37,698 bases of DNA from Methylobacteriaceae bacterium. GTDB taxonomy: Bacteria > Pseudomonadota > Alphaproteobacteria > Rhizobiales > Beijerinckiaceae. Positions within the stretch are counted from its first letter, which is position 1. Each line of letters opens with the position of its first letter. The translations under genes were made by a program, and so were the position numbers. Below the pieces are notes generated by a model. It worked only from the letters and a program-made list of their open reading frames with translations, ran no database searches and was not told the DNA's origin. The stretch is taken from the NCBI GenBank assembly GCA_019233695.1, contig JAFAME010000249.1:1-37698 (forward strand). Reading direction: 5' to 3'. Shown here piece by piece: positions 13,274-23,451 of the stretch.

Positions 13274-13323
13274 GCCAAACGATTGGCTGAAATGCTTTTC
13301 CATCACCGAAGTCGGGGCGATTG

Positions 13324-14943
13324 ATGCACTTCCTGCGGAGCCTTTTTGATTCGGCCGACCTCGCTCCCCATGGAATCTGCCTGCTTTGGCGCCCGGAGCT
13401 TGTCTGGCTGCATGTCGTCTCCGACGCGCTGATCGGCATTTCGTATTTTTCAATTCCGGTGGCGATCGGCTACTTCGCGGCGAAGCGCTCCGACATCGTC
13501 TACGGCTGGGTCTTCTGGGCCTTTGCGATTTTCATCTGGGCGTGCGGATCGACGCATTTCTTTTCGATCTGGACGCTGTGGTCGCCGAACTACGGCGCCG
13601 AAGGCCTCGTGAAGGTGGTGACGGCAGGCGCCTCCGTCGTAACGGCGGTGGCGCTCTGGCCGCTTCTGCCCAAGGCGCTCGCGCTGCCGTCGAACGAGCA
13701 GTTGCGCCGGGTCAACGACGCGCTGAAGGAGCAGATCAAGGAGCGCGACGCCGCCATGGCGGCGCTCGAGGCCGAAAAGACCGAACGGCTGAAGGCGGAG
13801 GAAATGCTCCGCCAGACCCAGAAGATGGACGCGATCGGCCAGCTCACCGGCGGCATCGCCCACGATTTCAACAACATGTTGACCGTGATCCTGGGCAACG
13901 TCGAAGGTCTCGCCGAATCGGTCGCGGGTGCGCCGAAGCTCGTCACGACGGTTCGGCTGATCGAAGAAGCGGCGGAGCGCGGCGCCGAGCTGACCCAGCA
14001 TCTCCTCGCTTTCGCCCGCAAGCAGCCGCTCGAGCCGCGCCCGACCGACGTCAATGCGCTCGTGACCAGCGCCGAAACTCTCTTCAAGCACGCGTTGGGG
14101 GAGCAGATCGAAATCGAGACCATCTTGGAGGACGGGCCCCTGATCGTGCTCGTCGATCCGTCCCAGCTCAGGGCCTCATTGCTCAATCTCGCGGTCAATG
14201 CGCGAGACGCCATGCCGAATGGCGGCAAGCTGACCATCGAAACGGCCAACGTCGTTCTCGACGAGACCTATGCGGCAAGCAACAGCGAGGTCAGTCCGGG
14301 GCGCTATGGAATGATCGCCGTCAGCGATACCGGGGTGGGTATCCCCGCACCGATTCGAGACCGGGTGTTCGAACCGTTCTTCACGACGAAGGAAATGGGC
14401 AAGGGAACCGGGCTCGGCCTCAGCATGGTCTATGGTTTCGTCAAGCAGTCCAATGGATACATCAAACTCTACAGCGAGGAGGGGCATGGCACGACGATAA
14501 AGATCTATCTTCCCAGATCCGACGAGCAGGCGGTCGAAATCGCCGATGAGGTATCTGCAGTACGGGCACGCGGGGGGAGCGAGACCATTCTGGTGGTTGA
14601 GGATGACGCGCTCGTGCTCGAATACGTCAGCGCGCAGCTGGAAGGCTTGGGGTACACCACCTTGTTGGCGGCCAATGCCGCCGAGGCCCTCGCGATCATC
14701 GAAAGAGGGGAGAAGATCGATCTCCTGTTTACCGACGTCATCCTCACCGGCACGATGAACGGACGCGAGCTGGCCCGGGAAGTGACCGCGCGCGTCCCTT
14801 CGATCAAGGTTCTCTTTACCTCGGGCTACACGGAGAACTCGATCGTCCACCACGGGCGGCTCGACTCCGGCGTTCTTCTCCTCACCAAGCCCTATCGCAA
14901 TTGGGACCTCGCCAACATGGTACGCATGGCACTTCGGACTTAG
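13324..14943 (+). CDS. Hybrid sensor histidine kinase with ETR1-like ethylene-binding membrane domain and receiver domain
   Basis: A 539-residue inner-membrane protein (ATG at 13324; a TTG just before it is less likely). Residues 26-118 form three helices that align with the plant ethylene receptor ETR1: SDALIGISYFSIP matches SDFFIAIAYFSIP, and FIWACGSTHFFSIWTL matches FIVLCGATHLINLWTF. The ethylene/copper residues of ETR1 (D25, Y32, I35, P36, C65, H69) correspond to D34, Y41, I44, P45, C74 and H78. A coiled coil (about 122-165) leads straight into the kinase: H-box GGIAHDFNN with H180, N-box NLAVNARDAM, G-boxes DTGVGI and GTGLGLSMV. A receiver follows (DD 427-428, phospho-acceptor D471, K522). 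There is no GAF domain, unlike plant receptors. Function as an ethylene sensor is inferred. Confidence 0.92.
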   Translation: MHFLRSLFDSADLAPHGICLLWRPELVWLHVVSDALIGISYFSIPVAIGYFAAKRSDIVYGWVFWAFAIFIWACGSTHFFSIWTLWSPNYGAEGLVKVVTAGASVVTAVALWPLLPKALALPSNEQLRRVNDALKEQIKERDAAMAALEAEKTERLKAEEMLRQTQKMDAIGQLTGGIAHDFNNMLTVILGNVEGLAESVAGAPKLVTTVRLIEEAAERGAELTQHLLAFARKQPLEPRPTDVNALVTSAETLFKHALGEQIEIETILEDGPLIVLVDPSQLRASLLNLAVNARDAMPNGGKLTIETANVVLDETYAASNSEVSPGRYGMIAVSDTGVGIPAPIRDRVFEPFFTTKEMGKGTGLGLSMVYGFVKQSNGYIKLYSEEGHGTTIKIYLPRSDEQAVEIADEVSAVRARGGSETILVVEDDALVLEYVSAQLEGLGYTTLLAANAAEALAIIERGEKIDLLFTDVILTGTMNGRELAREVTARVPSIKVLFTSGYTENSIVHHGRLDSGVLLLTKPYRNWDLANMVRMALRT

Positions 14944-15129: not shown

Positions 15130-16431
15130 ATGCTGAAGATGCAGCAACAGCGGTTTCGCTCGCCCGGTGAGCTTTCCGATGCCGGCGCGATCTTGGCCGA
15201 GGCAGCGGGATCGCCGCTGTGCTACGTCGTCGATGACGAGGAAGGCGTCCGCTACGTCATCTCCGACGCTCTGCAAAGCTGTGGCGTGGCCACGCAAGAG
15301 TTCGACTGCGCATCTTCGTTGCTCGAGGCGGTGGCCGAGACCGAACCCCAGCTCATCTTTCTCGATTTGTCGTTGACCGGCTCGGACGCGGTGGACGCGT
15401 TGCGCGGTCTCGCGGCGCTAGCCTACCGGGGCGTCGTTCAGCTGATCAGCGGTCGATTCGAGGCCCTGCTGAAGAACATCAACCAGATCGGGCAGCGTCA
15501 TTCGCTGCGGATGCTTCCGGTCCTGCGCAAACCCTTCCGTCGCAACGCGATCCGGAAAATCGTTCAGGATCTCGGACTGACGCAGTCCTCCCCGGAGGCG
15601 TGGCCGCCGGCCAGATGCAACGCCGCCGGAGATCGGAAGGGCGAATCACGGCCCTCGGTTCGCCTGGATGAGGCCCTCGCGAAAGGCTGGGTCGAGTTCT
15701 GGTATCAGCCGATCTTCGACTTTCGTGCAGACCGTCTTGCGGGCGCCGAGCTGCTGGCGCGGGTCAAGCATCCCGACCACGGCGTTCTCGCCCCGGCAAG
15801 CTTTCTGGCAAGTGCACAACCCGACGACCTGCGCACCTTGGCAAAACAGGCGGTTGTCGCGGCGCTCGATGATTGGTCGGTGCTCTCAGCTGCCGGCGGC
15901 CCGCTGTGGCTTGCCATCAACATCCCGGTGACAGCGTTGACCGCGTTGCCCATCCCGGCCCTTGTGCGGGAGCTGCGCCCGAAGGACAGCCGGTGGCCGG
16001 GCCTCATCCTGGAAGTAACCGAGGACCAGATCATGCGCGACATACCGCTCGCGCATGAAGTCGCCACACAGTTGCGGCTCTACGGCGTCACTCTCGCAAT
16101 CGACGACTTCGGTGCAGGATATTCCTCGCTGTCGCGGCTGCGCGAGATGCCGTTCTCGGCCCTGAAACTCGACGGCAGTTTCGTGGCGAATTGCGCCACC
16201 GACGATCTCAATTTCGGCATCTGCAAGACTGTCGTCGAACTCGCCCACCGGTTTGGCAGCATTGCTATTGCGGAAGGCATCGAGAATGCGGCCGACTTCG
16301 GGGCGCTGCGCCGCATGGGCTGCGACATGGGTCAGGGCTACCTGATCGCGCGGCCCATGCCGAAGGCAGAATTTCTGGACTACCTGGGGCGGCGCCATGG
16401 TTTGGGACCGCGCGGCGCCGCCATAGCGTAG
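15130..16431 (+). CDS. Response regulator with receiver and EAL (c-di-GMP phosphodiesterase) domains
   Basis: A 433-residue cytoplasmic protein. The receiver (about 30-145) keeps the acidic pair D35-D36, phospho-acceptor D79 (IFLDLSL) and K134 (LRKPF). After a variable linker the EAL domain (about 178-420) keeps every residue needed for metal binding and catalysis at the spacing of the RocR phosphodiesterase: E207 (ELLAR), N264, E295 (LEVTE), D325-D326 (IDDFGAGYSSL), K346, E382 (AEGIE) and Q402. The EAL motif itself reads ELL, a common variant. It should hydrolyse c-di-GMP to pGpG when its receiver allows. It lies 186 bases downstream of the ETR1-like hybrid kinase in the same direction and is its most obvious partner. 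Confidence 0.93.
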   Translation: MLKMQQQRFRSPGELSDAGAILAEAAGSPLCYVVDDEEGVRYVISDALQSCGVATQEFDCASSLLEAVAETEPQLIFLDLSLTGSDAVDALRGLAALAYRGVVQLISGRFEALLKNINQIGQRHSLRMLPVLRKPFRRNAIRKIVQDLGLTQSSPEAWPPARCNAAGDRKGESRPSVRLDEALAKGWVEFWYQPIFDFRADRLAGAELLARVKHPDHGVLAPASFLASAQPDDLRTLAKQAVVAALDDWSVLSAAGGPLWLAINIPVTALTALPIPALVRELRPKDSRWPGLILEVTEDQIMRDIPLAHEVATQLRLYGVTLAIDDFGAGYSSLSRLREMPFSALKLDGSFVANCATDDLNFGICKTVVELAHRFGSIAIAEGIENAADFGALRRMGCDMGQGYLIARPMPKAEFLDYLGRRHGLGPRGAAIA

Positions 16432-16480: not shown

Positions 16481-17338
16481 TCACGGACGCGGCGATCGCA
16501 TGAAGGCCTCGAACGCGTCCTTGTAGTCAGGGTGCCAGCGTGACAGCGCAGGCCGATTCTTGATGATGTCGTCGATCGCCCATTGCATGCGTCGATTGTC
16601 CACGTCGCGCGTCACGGCATTGTCGGGACAGATCACATAGAAATCGCCGTCGGCCAGCCGCTGCAGCAGAAAGTCCACGACCTCGTCCGGCATCCACGCC
16701 GCGGCGGGTTTTTCCTCACTTCGCGCCGTCAGGCCGGTGAACGTGAAACCGGGCACAAGCAGATGCGCTGTCACCCTGCAGCCCGCAATGTTGCGCAACT
16801 CATGCGCCAGCTGCTCGGTCAGAACCTTCACGCCCGCCTTGGTGACGTTGTAGGCGGCATCGCCGGGCGGCGTGGTGATCCCCTGCTTCGAGCCGGTGTT
16901 GATGATGGCGCAAGGTGAGCCCTGATCGATCATCGTCTGGGTGAAGACCTGGATCCCATTGATGACGCCCCACAGGTTGACCTCGATCAGTCGGCGCCAT
17001 CGGTCGTAGCGCTCCCAGGGTCGGCCGCCGTCGCCGATGGCAGCATTGTTCATCAGAACGGCGATCTCGCCGAACGCCTCCAAAGCTGCGTCCTTGAGCT
17101 TGCGCACGTCTTCCAACCGGCTGACGTCCGTCGGCACGGCGCGGACGCTAGCGGCTCCCTCCGGCGCGTCGCCGGCGAGTGCCATGGCGGCCGCCTGGAG
17201 CCGCTCTTCCTCGACGTCGGCCAGGCAGACTTTCAGCCCCATTCCGGCAAAGCGCCTTGCCGCGGCCAGCCCGATCCCGCTTGCAGCGCCCGTGATGACC
17301 GCCACGCGTCCTGCTGCGATGGCCGGATGGCTTTGCAT
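16481..17338 (-). CDS. Short-chain dehydrogenase/reductase (SDR)
   Basis: A 285-residue classical SDR. The frame is open to 17485 inside the ATPase gene, but the ATG at 17338 is the right start because the fold begins at once with AAGRVAVITGAASGIG (cofactor motif TGAASGIG at 16-23). Other landmarks are D41 after the second strand (favouring NAD over NADP), NNAA at 97-100, S150, and the catalytic YNVTK with Y163 and K167. A longer than usual C-terminal part (WMPDEVVDFLLQRLADGDFY, then a region around RDVDNRRMQWAIDDI) covers the substrate site. It starts 23 bases after the sugar-type ATPase stop and is the last gene of that operon, so it may oxidise the imported sugar or polyol. The substrate is unknown. 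Confidence 0.9.
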   Translation of the reverse strand: MQSHPAIAAGRVAVITGAASGIGLAAARRFAGMGLKVCLADVEEERLQAAAMALAGDAPEGAASVRAVPTDVSRLEDVRKLKDAALEAFGEIAVLMNNAAIGDGGRPWERYDRWRRLIEVNLWGVINGIQVFTQTMIDQGSPCAIINTGSKQGITTPPGDAAYNVTKAGVKVLTEQLAHELRNIAGCRVTAHLLVPGFTFTGLTARSEEKPAAAWMPDEVVDFLLQRLADGDFYVICPDNAVTRDVDNRRMQWAIDDIIKNRPALSRWHPDYKDAFEAFMRSPRP

Positions 17339-17360: not shown

Positions 17361-18134
17361 CTACGCCGCCTTGGGGGCCGCGTCATCGGCCGACAGCGCC
17401 GTTTCGGCGGTCCCGGAGACGATGAGTTCGAGCACTTCCTTCTCGTTGGTGTGGCGGATGTAGCGGTCGCCGACACTCTGCCCACGCTTGAGCACCTGGA
17501 TGCGGTCGCCGACCTCGAAAATGTCGGTGAGGCGATGCGAGATGATGATCTGGGCGACGCCCTGGCGCTTCAGTTCGGTCATCGTTTCGAGCAGGCGCTC
17601 GGTCGCCATCACCGACAGATTCGCGGTCGGCTCGTCGAAAATGACGACCTTCGGATTGAACGAGATGGCGCGCGCGATGGCGACCGATTGCTGGCGACCG
17701 CCCGACAGGCTCTCGACCTTCTGGAACACCGAGTTGACGTCGACCTTGAGCCGCGACAGCACTGTCTTGGCCTCCGCATACATGCGCGGCTTATGGACGA
17801 AGAGCCCGAGCCGTTTGGGCCAGCGGCCAAGGAAGATGTTCTGGCCGATATCCATGTTCCCGCACAGCGCGAAGTCCTGATAGATCATCTCGATGCCGCG
17901 ATCGCGGCTCTCGTGCGGGCTCTTGAAGTGGGTCTCGGTGCCCTCGACCAGCACCTCGCCCTCGTCGCGGATGTAGGCGCCGGTGAGCACCTTCATCAAG
18001 GTCGACTTGCCGGCCGAATTGTCGCCCACGAGGCCGAGAATCTCGCCCGGCATGAGATACAGGCTGACATCCCAGAGCGCCCGCACCGGCCCAAAACTCT
18101 TGCGAATGCCGCGCATCTCGACGATCGGCGTCAT
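17361..18134 (-). CDS. Sugar ABC transporter ATPase, single-domain (ribose/fructose FrcA type)
   Basis: A 257-residue ATPase with one nucleotide-binding domain, unlike RbsA which has two. It has Walker A GDNSAGKST at 37-45, the Q-loop in MIYQDFALCGNMDIGQNIFLG, the signature LSGGRQQ at 143-149, Walker B VVIFDEPTANL from 163, and IISHRL as the H-loop. The wording of the Q-loop region and the signature is typical of the CUT2 (ribose-type) branch. Its ATG overlaps the stop of the fused permease (ATGA), showing translational coupling. The C-terminal tail is short and acidic. It is expected to act as a homodimer on the fused permease. Confidence 0.94.
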   Translation of the reverse strand: MTPIVEMRGIRKSFGPVRALWDVSLYLMPGEILGLVGDNSAGKSTLMKVLTGAYIRDEGEVLVEGTETHFKSPHESRDRGIEMIYQDFALCGNMDIGQNIFLGRWPKRLGLFVHKPRMYAEAKTVLSRLKVDVNSVFQKVESLSGGRQQSVAIARAISFNPKVVIFDEPTANLSVMATERLLETMTELKRQGVAQIIISHRLTDIFEVGDRIQVLKRGQSVGDRYIRHTNEKEVLELIVSGTAETALSADDAAPKAA

Positions 18135-20428
18135 GCGGTTCCTCCGATGGGGCGGCGCTGAGCGGCGCGCCAGCCTTCGACCCAGATGGCGAAGATGTTG
18201 TTTTGCCGCAGCCAGATGTCGCCGACGACGGCAAACAGCAGGATGAGGCCGATGAAGACGTTCATCCAGTGCTGCGGCAGGACGAACGACGTGCCGTCGC
18301 TCCAAATGATCTGCAGCGACAGGAGCGAGCGAATGAGGGTAATGACCGCAGCGCCCGCAAGCGAGCCTGCAATCGTGCCGTAGCCGCCGAAGATCGAGCC
18401 GCCGCCGATGATCACCGAGGCGATGGCGTCGAGCTCGCGCAGCTGGCCGGCCGACGGATTGAACGAACGGTAGTAGGCGACATAGATGACGCCGGCGGCG
18501 GCCGCGCAGAGCGCCGAGAAGACGAAGGCGGTGAAGCGCACCCGCGCGGTGTTGATCCCGGAATAGGCTGCCGCGCGTTCGTTGCCGCCGATGGCATAAC
18601 ACTTCTGGCCGTAGGGCATGTGACCGAGCACGATGGCGGCAAGGACGGCCACGACGGCAAGGAAGATCGTCTGTGCGCTCACCGCCTTGGCGACGGCAAG
18701 CCACAAGCCCCCCGTCGGCGCGATGCCAAAGGCATCGAGCACGTCATAGACGTTGCGGCCGATCAGGTTGAAGGTTTCCGGAAAGCCGGAGAGCTGGCGC
18801 CCGGCAACGAGCCAGGCGGCGAGCCCGCGCGCCATGTAGAACATGCCGAGCGTCGAGACGAAAGCGGGCAATTTCAGCCGCGTTGTCAGCCAGCCGTTGA
18901 TGACGCCGGCGGCTGCGCCCGCGGCAAAGCCGCCGATCACCGCGACGAGCGGCGAGGCATCCATCTCCTTCATCAGAAAGGCAGCAGCCGCCCCGGCGAA
19001 GGCCAGCACCGAGCCAACCGACAGGTCAATGTCGCCGTTGGCGATCACGAAGGTGAGCCCGATGGCGAGCAGGCCGATCTCGGTGAAAGCGAGCAACATC
19101 GCAAACGTGTTGTCGAGCGATCCCCAGAAATCCGGCCGGAACCAGAGGCCGAGCGCCCATAGTGCCACCATCAGCATGATGGCTGCGGCGTCGCGGCGAT
19201 GAAAGAAGGCCCTGAAGCCGCGTGCCTCGACGCCACGAGCCTGCGCCACCGTTCCCCTCGTTTGCGCGCCGGTGATGGCAATGCCCCCGGTTTCGAGCGC
19301 CAGCGGCGGCGGCAGGCCGCGGATGCGGGCCCAGGCGCGCTGCAGCACGCGGCGGCGCACCAGCCATGGCTCGATCAGCACCGAGACAAGCAGAATGAGG
19401 CCGAGGAAGGCGGGGACGGCACCGGCCGGCAGCTGGATCGATCCCTGGACCTCGATCAGCGTCCCGCCGAAATCCTGCGTTCGCGTCACCGGAATCTGCT
19501 CGCGCAGCACCTTGTCGATGAGCACGACGAGAAGCGCGCCGAGGCAGGAGCCGGCGATGCGACCGCGCCCGCCGACGATGGAAGCCCCGCCGACGATCAC
19601 GGAGGCGATGGCGATAAGCTCGGCGCCGAGGCCCTCCTGGGAGGTGAGCCCGTGGCTCTGGGCAACCGTCATCAGGCCGGCGATGCCGGCGGTCAGCGAC
19701 GACAGGATGTAGCTGCGGATGCGCACCCAACGCGTCGGCACGCCGGAATAGCGGGCTGCCTGTTCGTTGCCGCCGGTTGCGTAAGTCTCAAACCCCATGC
19801 GGGTGGAGGCAAGCACGACAGCGCCGATCGCCGCGACGACGAGAAATATGATGATCTGGTTGTTGAAGCCGAGGCTGTTGGTGTCGGCGAGCGAAAAGAA
19901 GGCCGGAAAATCGCGCGTCTTGATGTCGTAGGACATGTTCTCGCCGCCGGTGAGGCCGAGGACGAGCCCGCGCCCGATGAACAGCATCGTCAGCGTGGCG
20001 ATGAATGAGGGCACCTGGAGGACTGTGACGAGAAGTCCGTTGATCAGCCCGATCCCGAGGGCGACGCCCAACGCCGCCGCCGCTGCCGGCCACACGTCCA
20101 TGTCATAGTTCGTCGGGGAAAAGAGGATAGAAAAGACAACGGTCGTGAGGCCAAGCGTCGAGCCGACCGATAGGTCGATCTCCTTGTTGACGATGACGAA
20201 CGTCATGCCAATTGCCATGATGCCGTAGCGTGAGGCGTCGCGGAACACCGCCGAGAGGGCGTCGGTCGTGCCGAAGAAATCCGGGTTGATCCAAACGCCG
20301 ATCGCGTAAAGGATCATCATGAAGACGATGAGCCCCAGTTCCCAGCCGCCGAAGTAGAGCGAGGGGGCTCGTTTCTGTACGGCCACCGGGGCGGGGGCCT
20401 GGACTGACGTAGACGTCATCGAGGGCAA
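18131..20428 (-). CDS. Fused double permease of a ribose-type (CUT2) ABC transporter
   Basis: A 765-residue inner-membrane protein made of two RbsC-type permeases in one chain. Half 1 (about 25-360) has EIDLSVGS at 83-90, GGNEQAARYSG at 219-229 and IASVIVGGASIVGGRGRIAGS near 274-294. Half 2 (about 405-755) repeats the set: DIDLSVGS at 466-473, GGNERAAAYSG at 614-624 and IASVIIGGGSIFGGYGTIAGS. The linker around 360-405 is basic and probably cytoplasmic. The frame is continuous with no sign of a recent readthrough. Usually such permeases are separate chains. The start at 20428 has a second ATG three codons later. No binding-protein gene lies upstream. ATPase and SDR genes follow. Confidence 0.92.
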   Translation of the reverse strand: MPSMTSTSVQAPAPVAVQKRAPSLYFGGWELGLIVFMMILYAIGVWINPDFFGTTDALSAVFRDASRYGIMAIGMTFVIVNKEIDLSVGSTLGLTTVVFSILFSPTNYDMDVWPAAAAALGVALGIGLINGLLVTVLQVPSFIATLTMLFIGRGLVLGLTGGENMSYDIKTRDFPAFFSLADTNSLGFNNQIIIFLVVAAIGAVVLASTRMGFETYATGGNEQAARYSGVPTRWVRIRSYILSSLTAGIAGLMTVAQSHGLTSQEGLGAELIAIASVIVGGASIVGGRGRIAGSCLGALLVVLIDKVLREQIPVTRTQDFGGTLIEVQGSIQLPAGAVPAFLGLILLVSVLIEPWLVRRRVLQRAWARIRGLPPPLALETGGIAITGAQTRGTVAQARGVEARGFRAFFHRRDAAAIMLMVALWALGLWFRPDFWGSLDNTFAMLLAFTEIGLLAIGLTFVIANGDIDLSVGSVLAFAGAAAAFLMKEMDASPLVAVIGGFAAGAAAGVINGWLTTRLKLPAFVSTLGMFYMARGLAAWLVAGRQLSGFPETFNLIGRNVYDVLDAFGIAPTGGLWLAVAKAVSAQTIFLAVVAVLAAIVLGHMPYGQKCYAIGGNERAAAYSGINTARVRFTAFVFSALCAAAAGVIYVAYYRSFNPSAGQLRELDAIASVIIGGGSIFGGYGTIAGSLAGAAVITLIRSLLSLQIIWSDGTSFVLPQHWMNVFIGLILLFAVVGDIWLRQNNIFAIWVEGWRAAQRRPIGGTA

Positions 20429-20470
20429 AGCTCGCTAAAGCAGAAGCAACCGGCCATGGCGATCACGTTC

Positions 20471-20490
20471 CCGGTCCCGCGAGGGACCGG
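20471..20490. other. Perfect 8-bp hairpin in the leader of the fused permease
   Basis: CCGGTCCC (20471-20478) and GGGACCGG (20483-20490) pair perfectly around GCGA. It lies about 45 bases upstream of the permease start, so it could be in its mRNA leader. No T run follows on either strand, which argues against an intrinsic terminator. Confidence 0.4.
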
Positions 20491-20726
20491 CGCGATTGCG
20501 TGAGAAATAGGTTGTCGAACATTGAACTGCGTCGTCCGGCACTTTGTCCAACCCGGTCCCGACGACGCGACGCGGCGCCTCCCGTATGCGGACGCGACGG
20601 CTAGGCGGTCGCCTGCCTGCATCGAAGCCGCGATTTGCAATCGCTGTCAACTCGCTTCCGCGGTCTCGAGCCTGGAAGGCGCGATACCCCGCCGGTTTGG
20701 CGGGTCAGGGCGCGGGTGGATTGGAT

Positions 20727-20740
20727 CGGAAGCGTTTCCG
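20727..20740. promoter_or_regulatory. LacI-family-type operator palindrome
   Basis: CGGAAGCGTTTCCG has the CG-centred symmetry of LacI/PurR/GalR-type operators; 12 of the 14 positions are symmetric. It lies about 300 bases upstream of the sugar-type permease and 230 bases upstream of the DUF6600-like genes. Sugar transporters of this type are often under LacI-family control, but no such regulator is in the window. Confidence 0.4.
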
Positions 20741-20852
20741 AAACCGTCGTTGTGCAGATTACCGACGCAAAAGCCTCAGGGCGCAGAATGCTGATCCTCG
20801 ATGCTGCGTTCCATTGTGTGAATTCTTACGCGGCAAATACAGGTGACCGGCA

Positions 20853-20876
20853 ACCCGCGAATTTTTGTGCGCGGGT
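20853..20876. other. 7-bp inverted repeat upstream of the DUF6600-like pair
   Basis: ACCCGCG (20853-20859) and CGCGGGT (20870-20876) form a perfect inverted repeat around ATTTTTGTG-rich DNA. TACACT follows at 20875-20880 and could be a -10 box for the rightward genes. It may be a regulator site or an RNA hairpin; the sequence does not decide. Confidence 0.3.
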
Positions 20877-20967
20877 ACACTGAGATCTCTCCCCGATCCT
20901 GAGCAAATGGGCGCGTGAGCCTTGGCCACGCTGCGACCGGCATTTCCGGTCTTTCGGGGATACTTCC

Positions 20968-21822
20968 ATGCTTCGCACCGACCTCGGAGCGCCAGAGCGA
21001 TCGCATCTTTCGCGGCGCCGGCTGCTTTCGGGCCTCAGCGGCCTGACGCTCCTCGGCCTGGGTGGCGCTGCCGCGCTCGCCCAGACCTCAGCCCCGCCGG
21101 CAATGTCGGCACCGAATGGCGCACCGCCTGACGATCCGACCGCCGCACCGGCAGGACCCGAGCCCCTGAGGCCGGAGTTTCGCGCCGTCCTCACCCAGTT
21201 CGGCACCTTCACGCAGAAGGCGCCCTATGGAGAGGTGTGGGTGCCGGGAGTCACGCCGCAGGGCTGGCATCCCTATCCGCCCTGCCACTGGATCAACACC
21301 CGCAAGGTCGGCTGGTATTTCGACGACCAGACCCCCTGGGGGCAGATCGTCCATCACTACGGCCGATGGGCTCGCGACGATCAATCCGGCTGGTTCTGGG
21401 TGCCCGGATCGGAATGGAGCCCCGGCTGGGTGCTGTGGCGGTCGAACGACAGCTATATCGGCTGGATTCCGCTGCCGCCCGATCAGGGCGACAAGGACGC
21501 GCTGAAGGCCGCCATCGAGACCGCCGACAGCTGGCTCTTCATGGAGACCGCCAAGTTCGGCACCACCTGCGAACCGGCCGCTGCTCTGCCGTCCGCACAA
21601 AATCCGGCGATCCTGCAGGCCACGAACTTCGTCACCCGCATCGAAGCGGTCGACGGCATCGCGGTCTTCGTCCTGCCCGTCGGCGGACCGGTCATCGACA
21701 TCGATGTGATCGTCGAACCGTGGCCCGTCTGGTTCTTCACGGAGATCGTCATCCTGTGGACCTGGATCTGGCTCCACGTGCTGATCATCGAAATCAAATT
21801 CGTCTGCCTGCCAGGGCGATGA
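20968..21822 (+). CDS. Secreted DUF6600-like aromatic-rich protein with twin-arginine-type signal
   Basis: A 284-residue exported protein of unknown function. The N-terminus carries SRRRLLSGLSGLTLLGLGG (about 14-32), a twin-arginine-like signal, cleaved near ALAQ at 39. After a Pro/Ala linker, residues about 70-175 show a Trp/Tyr/Gly-rich pattern that I recognise as DUF6600-like: YGEVWVPGVTPQGWHPYP, then GWYFDDQTPWGQIVHHYGRWA, then GWFWVPGSEWSPGWVLWR and IGWIPLPP. The end (about 235-280) is very hydrophobic (WPVWFFTEIVILWTWIWLHV), possibly a membrane-embedded or strongly beta segment. It is 15 bases upstream of a paralogue with the same core, so both are probably co-transcribed cell-envelope proteins. 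Confidence 0.85.
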   Translation: MLRTDLGAPERSHLSRRRLLSGLSGLTLLGLGGAAALAQTSAPPAMSAPNGAPPDDPTAAPAGPEPLRPEFRAVLTQFGTFTQKAPYGEVWVPGVTPQGWHPYPPCHWINTRKVGWYFDDQTPWGQIVHHYGRWARDDQSGWFWVPGSEWSPGWVLWRSNDSYIGWIPLPPDQGDKDALKAAIETADSWLFMETAKFGTTCEPAAALPSAQNPAILQATNFVTRIEAVDGIAVFVLPVGGPVIDIDVIVEPWPVWFFTEIVILWTWIWLHVLIIEIKFVCLPGR

Positions 21823-21837
21823 GAAGGAGCTACGTCC

Positions 21838-23451
21838 ATGTACCTGAACGCAAACTTTGGCAGGCCCCTCAAGGCCGCCGTCTCGGCGAGCGTGCTCGCG
21901 ATCGCGATCCTGCCGCCTTCGTCCATCCTGTCGGGCTTCCTTTCCTCGGCCATGGCCCAGGAAACCGGGCAGCCGGCCTCGCCGGCCGGACCCGACGCAA
22001 CGCCCCCGGGAGCGCCGCAAGCGCCAACCCCCGGCATCAGCGATGAGATGCGCGCCACCCTGGCGCAATACGGCCAGTTCGTGCAGAGCCCCCGCTACGG
22101 CGAGGTCTGGACGCCCTCGGCAGTGCCGCAGGGCTGGCATCCCTACATGGCCTGCGACTGGGTCAATAGCCGCCAGTACGGCTGGTACTACGACGACAAG
22201 ACGCCCTGGGGCGCCATCGTCCACCACTATGGGCGATGGGCCCACGACGACGGTCTCGGCTGGATCTGGATTCCGGGCCAGGACTTCAGCCCCGGCTGGG
22301 TCGTCTGGCGCACGAGCCCGGAATGGACCGGCTGGGCGCCGATCCCGCCCGACCAGGACATTCAGGCGATGTCGTCTGACCAGTTCAACAACGGCGGGTT
22401 CTGGACCTTCGTCGAGACGGCGAAATTCGATGCCGGCTGCGGCGGCGCCGCGGCCCCGCCCGACCAGACGCCTGCCTTGCTGCACGAGACGAAGTTCGTG
22501 ACCGACTTCAAGATGATGAACGGCGTCGGGGTCGCCGTCATGCCGGCCTACATCGGCGGACCTTACGTCGACATCAATGTCGTCATCCATCCCTGGCCGG
22601 TGATCATCGTCGAGAAGATCTTCATCGACTTGACGGTGATCTGGACGACCTGGGACATTGTCGTGGAAACGGTCTACATCCGGTGCCCGTCGCCGCCCCC
22701 GCCGCCCCCGCCTCCGCCACCTCCGCCACCTCCGCCTCCGCCGCCTCCGCCACCTCCGCCTCCGCCGCCACCTCCGCCGCCGCTGACGTACGTGCCGTCA
22801 TGCCCGAACGGTCTGCCGCGCTTTCGCGGCGGCGAGTGCCTGCCGCCTCCGACAGGCGTGGTGTGCCCGGACGGCAGTGTTGCCGCGGTCGCAGCGATGT
22901 GCCCGAGGCCGCAGGCAAGGCTGTGCCCCGACGGCAGCGTGGTGCCGGCGGGCGCGACGTGCCCGACGCCGCCGCGGTTCAGAACCTGCCCTGACGGCAG
23001 CCTCGTGCCTCTCGGGGCGATGTGCAAGGTTGCGGGACCGCCTCCGCAGGTGAAGACCTGCCCCGACGGCAGCCTCGTTCCCCTCGGCGCGATGTGCAAG
23101 ACCGCCGGTCCGCCGTTGTCGCGGACAAAAACCTGCCCTGACGGGAGTGTCGTGCCCATCTTCGCGATGTGCCGGCTGCCCGAGCCGCCGAAGCCGCGGG
23201 TGAAGACCTGCCCGGACGGCGCCGTCGTCCCGATCGGCGCGGTATGCACGGTCGAACGCCGCATCGAGCGCTTGGAGCCGGTGTTCCGCCCGCACCTGCC
23301 GAACCTCGTGATCGGGCCGACGCCATCGCCCGGCCCGCGGTTCTTCGGCGGCCCAATCCTGCGCGGTACGTTCGGCGGCCCGATCCTGCGCGGCGGCTTC
23401 ACCGCCCCTGGCGGCCCGGTGCTACCGCCCGTCAGGTTCCGCTTCCGCTGA
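21838..23451 (+). CDS. Secreted DUF6600-like protein with 30-proline tract and CPDG cysteine repeats
   Basis: A 537-residue exported protein, paralogue of the preceding gene. A Sec-type signal (cleavage near AMAQ, residue 41) replaces the twin-arginine one. Residues about 70-175 repeat the DUF6600-like core (YGEVWTPSAVPQGWHPYM, GWYYDDKTPWGAIVHHYGRW, GWIWIPGQDFSPGWVVWR, GWAPIPPD). After a hydrophobic stretch comes a run of 30 prolines (286-315), then a tail with seven C-x11-C units, six of them close to CPDGSVVPIGAMC (about 322-470). The end is rich in Gly/Pro/Arg with two FGGPILRG copies. The proline rod may hold the Cys domain away from the membrane or wall. Function unknown; a start with GAAGGAG 8 bases upstream supports the ATG. 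Confidence 0.87.
   Translation: MYLNANFGRPLKAAVSASVLAIAILPPSSILSGFLSSAMAQETGQPASPAGPDATPPGAPQAPTPGISDEMRATLAQYGQFVQSPRYGEVWTPSAVPQGWHPYMACDWVNSRQYGWYYDDKTPWGAIVHHYGRWAHDDGLGWIWIPGQDFSPGWVVWRTSPEWTGWAPIPPDQDIQAMSSDQFNNGGFWTFVETAKFDAGCGGAAAPPDQTPALLHETKFVTDFKMMNGVGVAVMPAYIGGPYVDINVVIHPWPVIIVEKIFIDLTVIWTTWDIVVETVYIRCPSPPPPPPPPPPPPPPPPPPPPPPPPPPPPPPLTYVPSCPNGLPRFRGGECLPPPTGVVCPDGSVAAVAAMCPRPQARLCPDGSVVPAGATCPTPPRFRTCPDGSLVPLGAMCKVAGPPPQVKTCPDGSLVPLGAMCKTAGPPLSRTKTCPDGSVVPIFAMCRLPEPPKPRVKTCPDGAVVPIGAVCTVERRIERLEPVFRPHLPNLVIGPTPSPGPRFFGGPILRGTFGGPILRGGFTAPGGPVLPPVRFRFR
22693..22782 (+). repeat. Run of 30 proline codons
   Basis: Thirty consecutive proline codons, using CCG, CCT, CCA and CCC in mixed order, with a recurring CCGCCTCCGCCACCT-type unit. 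This is both a protein rod and a DNA tract prone to slippage. Translation would depend on EF-P. Confidence 0.95.
22801..23247 (+). repeat. Seven C-x11-C protein repeats (CPDG type)
   Basis: Units begin CPNGLPRFRGGEC (degenerate), then CPDGSVAAVAAMC, CPDGSVVPAGATC, CPDGSLVPLGAMC twice, CPDGSVVPIFAMC and CPDGAVVPIGAVC. Each pair of cysteines is spaced alike, so seven small disulfide loops are likely in the oxidising periplasm or outside the cell. Linkers between units are Pro-rich and basic. Confidence 0.9.

Follow-up and report, generated by a model that had tools for sequence, protein, structure and literature searches.

A fused CUT2-like permease in a Methylobacteriaceae bacterium and a candidate binding protein encoded on another contig

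The locus described here lies in the window, which is the whole 37,698-nucleotide stretch of DNA that was analysed (contig JAFAME010000249.1 of the draft assembly GCA_019233695.1, Methylobacteriaceae bacterium). Its central gene encodes a CUT2-like permease in which two permease halves are fused in one chain, and it is followed by a gene for a single-domain ATP-binding cassette (ABC) ATPase (Table 1). The single open reading frame (ORF) of the permease gives 765 residues if translation begins at a TTG codon and 762 residues from the ATG at 20419, which is the fourth codon. Pfam analysis identified two BPD_transp_2 stretches (E value, 1.2e-86); this was the only family listed at E ≤ 0.001, and the chain did not fall into the FecCD sequence family. 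Each half carries its own pair of motifs: EIDLSVGS at residue 83 and GGNEQAARYSG at residue 219 of the N-half pair with DIDLSVGS at residue 466 and GGNERAAAYSG at residue 614 of the C-half, respectively. An alignment of the two halves shows 40.9% identity over 340 positions, so they do not represent a recent repeat.

Table 1. Genes and other features of the fused permease locus in the window
Feature	Position	Strand	Basis
Fused CUT2-like permease, two BPD_transp_2 halves	18131..20428	-	ORF and Pfam
N-half of the permease, residues about 1–375	19304..20428	-	motifs, model
C-half of the permease, residues about 376–765	18134..19303	-	motifs, model, alignment
Single-domain ABC ATPase, 257 aa	17361..18134	-	Pfam, alignment
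Short-chain dehydrogenase (SDR)	16481..17338	-	Pfam
Divergent gap, place of the binding-protein gene in most relatives	20429..20967		ORFs, tblastn

The affinity of the permease to the CUT2 family was supported by NCBIfam, in which CUT2 models scored 160–316 bits vs 20–72 bits for Liv/Urt models. The chain remained below the cut-off of every NCBIfam substrate model, the closest being GguB (316 of 450 bits) and ribose (294 of 398 bits), and ribose was rejected as the cargo on this score. A profile of the permease matched no PDB sequence at E ≤ 1e-5. A first-pass annotation of this DNA had described two ribose-type permeases in one 765-residue chain, each half with a DIDLSVGS-type and a GGNExAAxYSG motif, and the halves too different for a recent repeat. 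The single chain, the motifs and the divergence of the halves were all confirmed; the label "ribose-type" was not, as no substrate model was reached and genes beside some relatives suggest a galactonate-type pathway.

The start codon of the ATPase (ATG at 18134) overlaps the stop of the permease by 4 nt. The protein consists of one ABC_tran domain, aligns to residues 1–240 of the 501 residues of RbsA, and is 77–85% identical to seven relatives. The motifs GDNSAGKST (Walker A), LSGGRQQ (signature), DEP (Walker B), and SHR (H-loop) are invariant in all eight aligned sequences. The common Walker A pattern is GxxGxGK, and a Ser replaces a Gly of this pattern in all eight.

The same fusion was found in 40 other distinct loci, with permeases about 56–71% identical to that of the window; 42 loci were examined besides the window, two of which are duplicates in the tree (L033 equals L127, and L034 equals L129). 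Within the family, 19 of the 396 other genomes carried a one-frame, stop-free fusion (20 of 397 when the window's genome is counted), the permease of one of them (G076) being cut by a contig end, and so did one of 24 genomes from other families of the order (G050). A 60-genome sample that included the window's own contained four other genomes with the fusion, three of them shared with the family set. Of the 80 loci retained from the GTDB genome collection, at least 19 were fused; all were labelled alphaproteobacterial, and 13 belonged to Rhizobium, Mesorhizobium or Ensifer. Matches spanning 80% or more of the permease were also obtained in 33 of 72,556 plasmid records, exclusively from Rhizobium, Sinorhizobium, Ensifer or Phyllobacterium, and three of these plasmid loci are also counted among the 42. 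The motifs of both halves were invariant among the relatives aligned, and the C-half was the more conserved (mean identity of 64.7% vs 60.1% for the N-half over the 42 loci, including the two duplicates). One translation (L046) contained a single stop, five residues into the match and ahead of the likely start.

A sequencing error or false fusion was rejected, as the same fusion is conserved in these 40 loci. The earlier annotation had proposed a search for the same architecture and had considered that relatives might possess two separate permease genes, the fusion here being a sequencing error; the search was successful, and the latter outcome did not occur. The fusion is thus a conserved family and no oddity of this genome, and its annotated members bear only generic names such as "ABC transporter permease" or "sugar ABC transporter permease". 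A literature search that covered titles and the openings of abstracts, with subscription papers covered in part, returned no description of a fused CUT2 permease family, and the accessible part of a study mentioning CUT2 systems of R. leguminosarum does not refer to a fusion (PMC3333776).

The origin of the halves was analysed in a quick maximum likelihood tree of 102 rows, which returned long-branch warnings. Four of the 18 fused proteins prepared for it were omitted to reduce the number of close relatives, and an open frame of more than 600 residues excluded six of the 68 single-permease candidates; the single permeases had been picked for their likeness to the fused one and form a biased set. 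All 14 N-halves formed one clade and all 14 C-halves another (support 100, starred in each case). The two clades were sisters with a support of 86 only, and their next neighbour was LsrC (82) on a long branch. Because the clades are sisters, an ancient duplication followed by fusion would be the simpler reading, which the long branches weaken. The consistent separation of N- and C-halves and the 40 other distinct loci agree with the old fusion that had been suggested from the divergence of the halves.

Further fused CUT2-like permeases were observed in the same genome. A second one, on contig C160 (L113, 2235–4448), consists of a 737-aa frame with two BPD_transp_2 halves, has a binding-protein fragment upstream, and is accompanied by a full-length, two-domain-type ATPase of 520 aa; in the tree, the two parts of this permease group with E. 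coli YtfT and YjfF (supports of 88 and 89, on long branches). A third one, on contig C155 (L114, 163–2250), is 695 aa in length, is followed by an SDR gene, and has an unsure placement in the tree. These two permeases, together with the position of the C160 halves beside YtfT and YjfF, suggest that fusion of CUT2 permeases probably arose more than once.

In most relatives, the fused permease is accompanied by a binding protein. One and the same Peripla_BP_4-type gene lies upstream on the same strand in 39 of the 42 loci (37 of 40 distinct), with 47–249 bp between match ends in the adjacent loci; in L126, only the end of this gene is on the contig. Five of the 33 plasmid matches were opened, and in all five regions, three of which belong to the 42 loci, the annotation places a substrate-binding protein immediately upstream. 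When the intergenic stretch between the two genes was folded in four loci, a hairpin was predicted in L033 (z −4.0) and L034 (z −4.8), and folding was weaker in L016 (z −1.5) and L018 (z −1.9); as a conjecture, such a hairpin would agree with overproduction of the binding protein. The corresponding place in the window is the divergent gap. None of the five ORFs in or overlapping it belongs to a Pfam family at E ≤ 0.01, and tblastn of two rhizobial cognate proteins found no binding-protein remnant in the whole window (best E value, 0.73), so a decayed binding-protein gene upstream of the permease was rejected. The order of binding protein, fused permease and one-domain ATPase is therefore common in relatives, is not required, and is absent from the window. 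The detachment of the binding-protein gene, rather than the fusion, is the unusual part of the locus.

An orthologue of the binding protein that most relatives encode beside the permease was detected on another contig of the window's genome (C54, 566–1645, minus strand; E value, 4e-157; next match, 2e-13). The protein is of full length, contains a Peripla_BP_4 domain (E value, 6.8e-30), and is 79–81% identical to the adjacent copies of L016–L018 and 62–66% identical to the others aligned. Eleven further, weaker matches in the assembly are 24–31% identical over the matched stretch, vs 67% for the C54 protein. A hairpin follows the stop of the C54 gene (z −5.3), and the neighbouring genes encode xylose isomerase (xylA), a KDPGal-aldolase and, as fragments, a convergent SDR and a PfkB kinase. 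A profile of the binding protein matched three distant binding proteins in the PDB (7x0g, 4rxt, and 4ru1). Of the earlier statements on this part of the system, the gene-free nature of the 539 bases upstream was borne out by the Pfam and tblastn results, and a search for the binding protein next to the permease in related genomes, proposed as a check, found it in nearly all of them. The absence of a binding protein held for the locus and failed for the assembly, and the suggestion that the transporter may use one from elsewhere gains indirect support from the C54 orthologue.

Besides the window, three loci lack the adjacent binding-protein gene (G102, G129, and G066), and all three come from one other genus. 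Wider stretches around these permeases contained no binding-protein gene either. The G102 assembly comprises three contigs, and its permease at 2.99 Mb and binding protein at 4.34 Mb lie 1.35 Mb apart on the same one, and the gene was also found elsewhere in the genome of G066. Among the four genomes of this genus, the permease was present in three, the binding protein in three and both in two, never adjacent; the two single absences both concern drafts, of 430 and 550 contigs. The permease data rejected a single clade for all four detached permeases (p-AU 0.00018), and on this permease evidence only, two detachments are claimed; one old detachment followed by re-joining or gene transfer may instead have occurred. 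A topology joining the C54 copy with the G081 copy was not rejected (p-AU 0.104). As side observations in this genus, a gene for a RuBisCO-like protein lies downstream of the fused permease and ATPase pair in two loci (L137, 12079–13326; L139, 6181–7269), and in G102 the detached permease has a transposase-type integrase-core gene (L137, 6600–7787) just over 1 kb upstream, with recO between them.

An AlphaFold2 model was generated from 18 sequences to describe the fold of the permease, and the best of five models was of moderate confidence (pLDDT 72, pTM 0.72). In the model, the same succession of helices occurs twice. E. coli FhuB (7lb8_B) was the only PDB match in Foldseek at E ≤ 0.001 (E value, 5.4e-6). 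VIA-align superposed 525 residues on FhuB between residues 27 and 739, spanning both halves (Z 15.2; root-mean-square deviation [rmsd], 5.7), and the other ABC importers of the same fold near the top of the ranking (such as HmuUV, BtuCD, BhuUV, and PsaBC) were single halves aligned to the C-half. The likeness to FhuB in this moderate-confidence model is a resemblance of fold only. The N-half has an extra predicted beta-hairpin at residues 312–331, preceding its last helix, which is missing from all eight aligned E. coli CUT2 permeases. According to the positive-inside rule, with positive residues past the last helix, this hairpin would face the periplasm, and the two halves may therefore differ in how they contact the binding protein. 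In the C-half, residues about 545–585 form a longer loop, which is lacking in most of the eight E. coli permeases, and XylH has its own longer insert at this place.

The system was compared with known importers. In common with the CUT2 importers of E. coli (RbsABC, AraFGH, XylFGH, YtfQRT-YjfF, and LsrACDB), it has BPD_transp_2 halves with alignable motifs and a Peripla_BP_4 binding protein, and its ATPase most closely resembles the first RbsA domain. It differs from them in its fused halves, in an ATPase of one ABC domain (257 aa) rather than two, in the extra loops of the permease, and in the detached binding-protein gene of the window's genome. In canonical RbsABC, a single permease chain pairs as a dimer, whereas here both halves are in one chain and the ATPase is single-domain. 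FhuCDB likewise has both transmembrane halves in one chain (FhuB, 7lb8), together with a single-domain ATPase and a separate binding protein; one fused FhuB chain is combined with two one-domain ATPases. However, it belongs to another sequence family (13% identity) and carries another cargo, and the FhuCDB layout may by analogy apply to the CUT2 permease. The fused permease on C160 shares the two BPD_transp_2 halves in one frame but has a two-domain ATPase and probably a separate origin. A rhizobial fused permease (WP_027667209.1, R. leguminosarum) is about 58% identical and shows the same permease–ATPase order, but its binding-protein gene lies directly upstream. Most likely, the importer is a real and ordinary CUT2-like system and no new class.

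Neighbouring genes gave some indication of the cargo. Genes for an SDR, a 2-keto-3-deoxygalactonokinase and a KDPGal-aldolase diverge from the operon in three of six regions tested (L018, L033, and L034), and a 2-keto-3-deoxygalactonokinase fragment lies at the end of contig C359 of the window's genome. The KDPGal-aldolase gene and xylA on C54 add to this indication. In the other three regions (L016, L017, and L149), an SDR homologue (68–73%) and a second CUT2 system adjoin the fused operon. A permease and ATPase of this second system occupy 5013–7954 in L016, 4788–7669 in L017 and about 12070–13860 in L149, flanked by the SDR gene, and in L016 the system includes a further Peripla_BP_4 protein. 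A sugar of the galactose, arabinose or xylose class is our best guess for the cargo of the fused permease, and a tentative one.

Overall, it is probable that the locus encodes a CUT2-like importer with a fused, pseudo-dimeric permease, fed in trans by the C54 protein, whose gene would have been split from an ancestral operon. One fused chain would supply the transmembrane pathway, and a pair of one-domain ATPases would lie under the two GGNE-type motifs, which form the coupling region. The C54 protein would deliver the sugar, of the galactose or pentose class or a close relative, from the periplasm for ATP-driven uptake. The ancestral operon of binding protein, fused permease and ATPase would have lost the adjacency of its binding-protein gene. 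The stoichiometry, the pairing of the C54 protein with the permease, the direction of import and the substrate are what we infer from the comparisons above.

Several observations weigh against this proposal. No binding protein was found in the genome of G129, and the tree of binding proteins groups the three detached copies (91, not starred), a history that does not fully match the one from the permease data. C54 is a contig of 4.2 kb in a draft of 514 contigs with an estimated contamination of 3.87%, and its assignment to the same organism relies on GC content (66.8% vs 65.2%), on xylA being single and on there being only one strong match to the binding protein. In the structural comparison, the mean pLDDT fell from 72 to 52 across the five AlphaFold2 models, and the Foldseek superposition on FhuB was loose (rmsd 14.5; TM 0.45/0.52). 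With regard to the cargo, the kinase and aldolase are absent from L016, L017, and L149, the rhizobial copies have other neighbouring genes, and in G102 and G066 none of these enzymes adjoins the detached binding-protein gene. Our confidence is tempered chiefly because G129 shows no binding protein and C54 may belong to another organism.

A fragmented, partly contaminated draft and the adjacency of the binding protein in 37 of 40 distinct loci would fit an assembly artefact, in which a false join upstream of the permease conceals a truly adjacent binding-protein gene or C54 is foreign. However, the permease start and the C54 gene are both intact, and the latter is followed by a hairpin and a convergent SDR gene rather than a permease; an artefact would therefore need misjoins at gene borders on both sides. 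The same separation also occurs in G102, with its three contigs, and in G066. Overall, we consider an artefact unlikely. It is quite unlikely that the permease no longer functions with its original partner and works instead with another CUT2 binding protein of this genome or with several. The 11 weaker matches in the assembly offer candidates, and there is a precedent in the Dpp system of P. aeruginosa, where, according to the accessible part of the report, several binding proteins serve one permease (PMC4206461); on the other side stand the low identity of these matches relative to the C54 protein and the full length and conservation of the latter. Very unlikely, finally, is a permease and ATPase pair that is a decaying remnant without function. 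The detachment from the usual upstream gene and the absence of a detectable binding protein in G129 are compatible with decay, but the permease frame is intact, its motifs are invariant in both halves, the ATPase has kept its identity to relatives and all of its motifs, and three genomes of the second genus also have open permease frames while detached.

If importers of this kind are fed in trans, a permease without a neighbouring binding protein may still have one, and in this case orthology revealed a candidate on another contig of the assembly. The fused permease also indicates that CUT2-like importers can take the form of a fixed pseudo-dimer with diverging halves, the extra loops of which differ between the N- and C-half, and this makes it askable which half contacts the binding protein. 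A more speculative reading, to which we give limited credence, is that the binding protein was detached at least twice within one family of bacteria, with both parts kept intact. If so, the binding protein may have a second, separately regulated job, such as sugar sensing with catabolic genes; alternatively, the fused core may now be general and serve several binding proteins.

The SDR gene of the window starts 22 nt past the ATPase stop and possibly shares an operon with the permease and ATPase. A close orthologue of it was absent from 26 relatives' loci (best identity, 35%). Further downstream of the operon, the window contains a gene for a hybrid histidine kinase with an ethylene-receptor-like N-terminal domain (13321–14943, plus strand), followed by one for a response-regulator/EAL protein (15130–16431, plus strand). 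Beyond the divergent gap lies a pair of DUF6600 genes (20968–21822 and 21838–23451, plus strand), and the protein encoded by the second has a long proline run followed by several CPDGS-type cysteine repeats.

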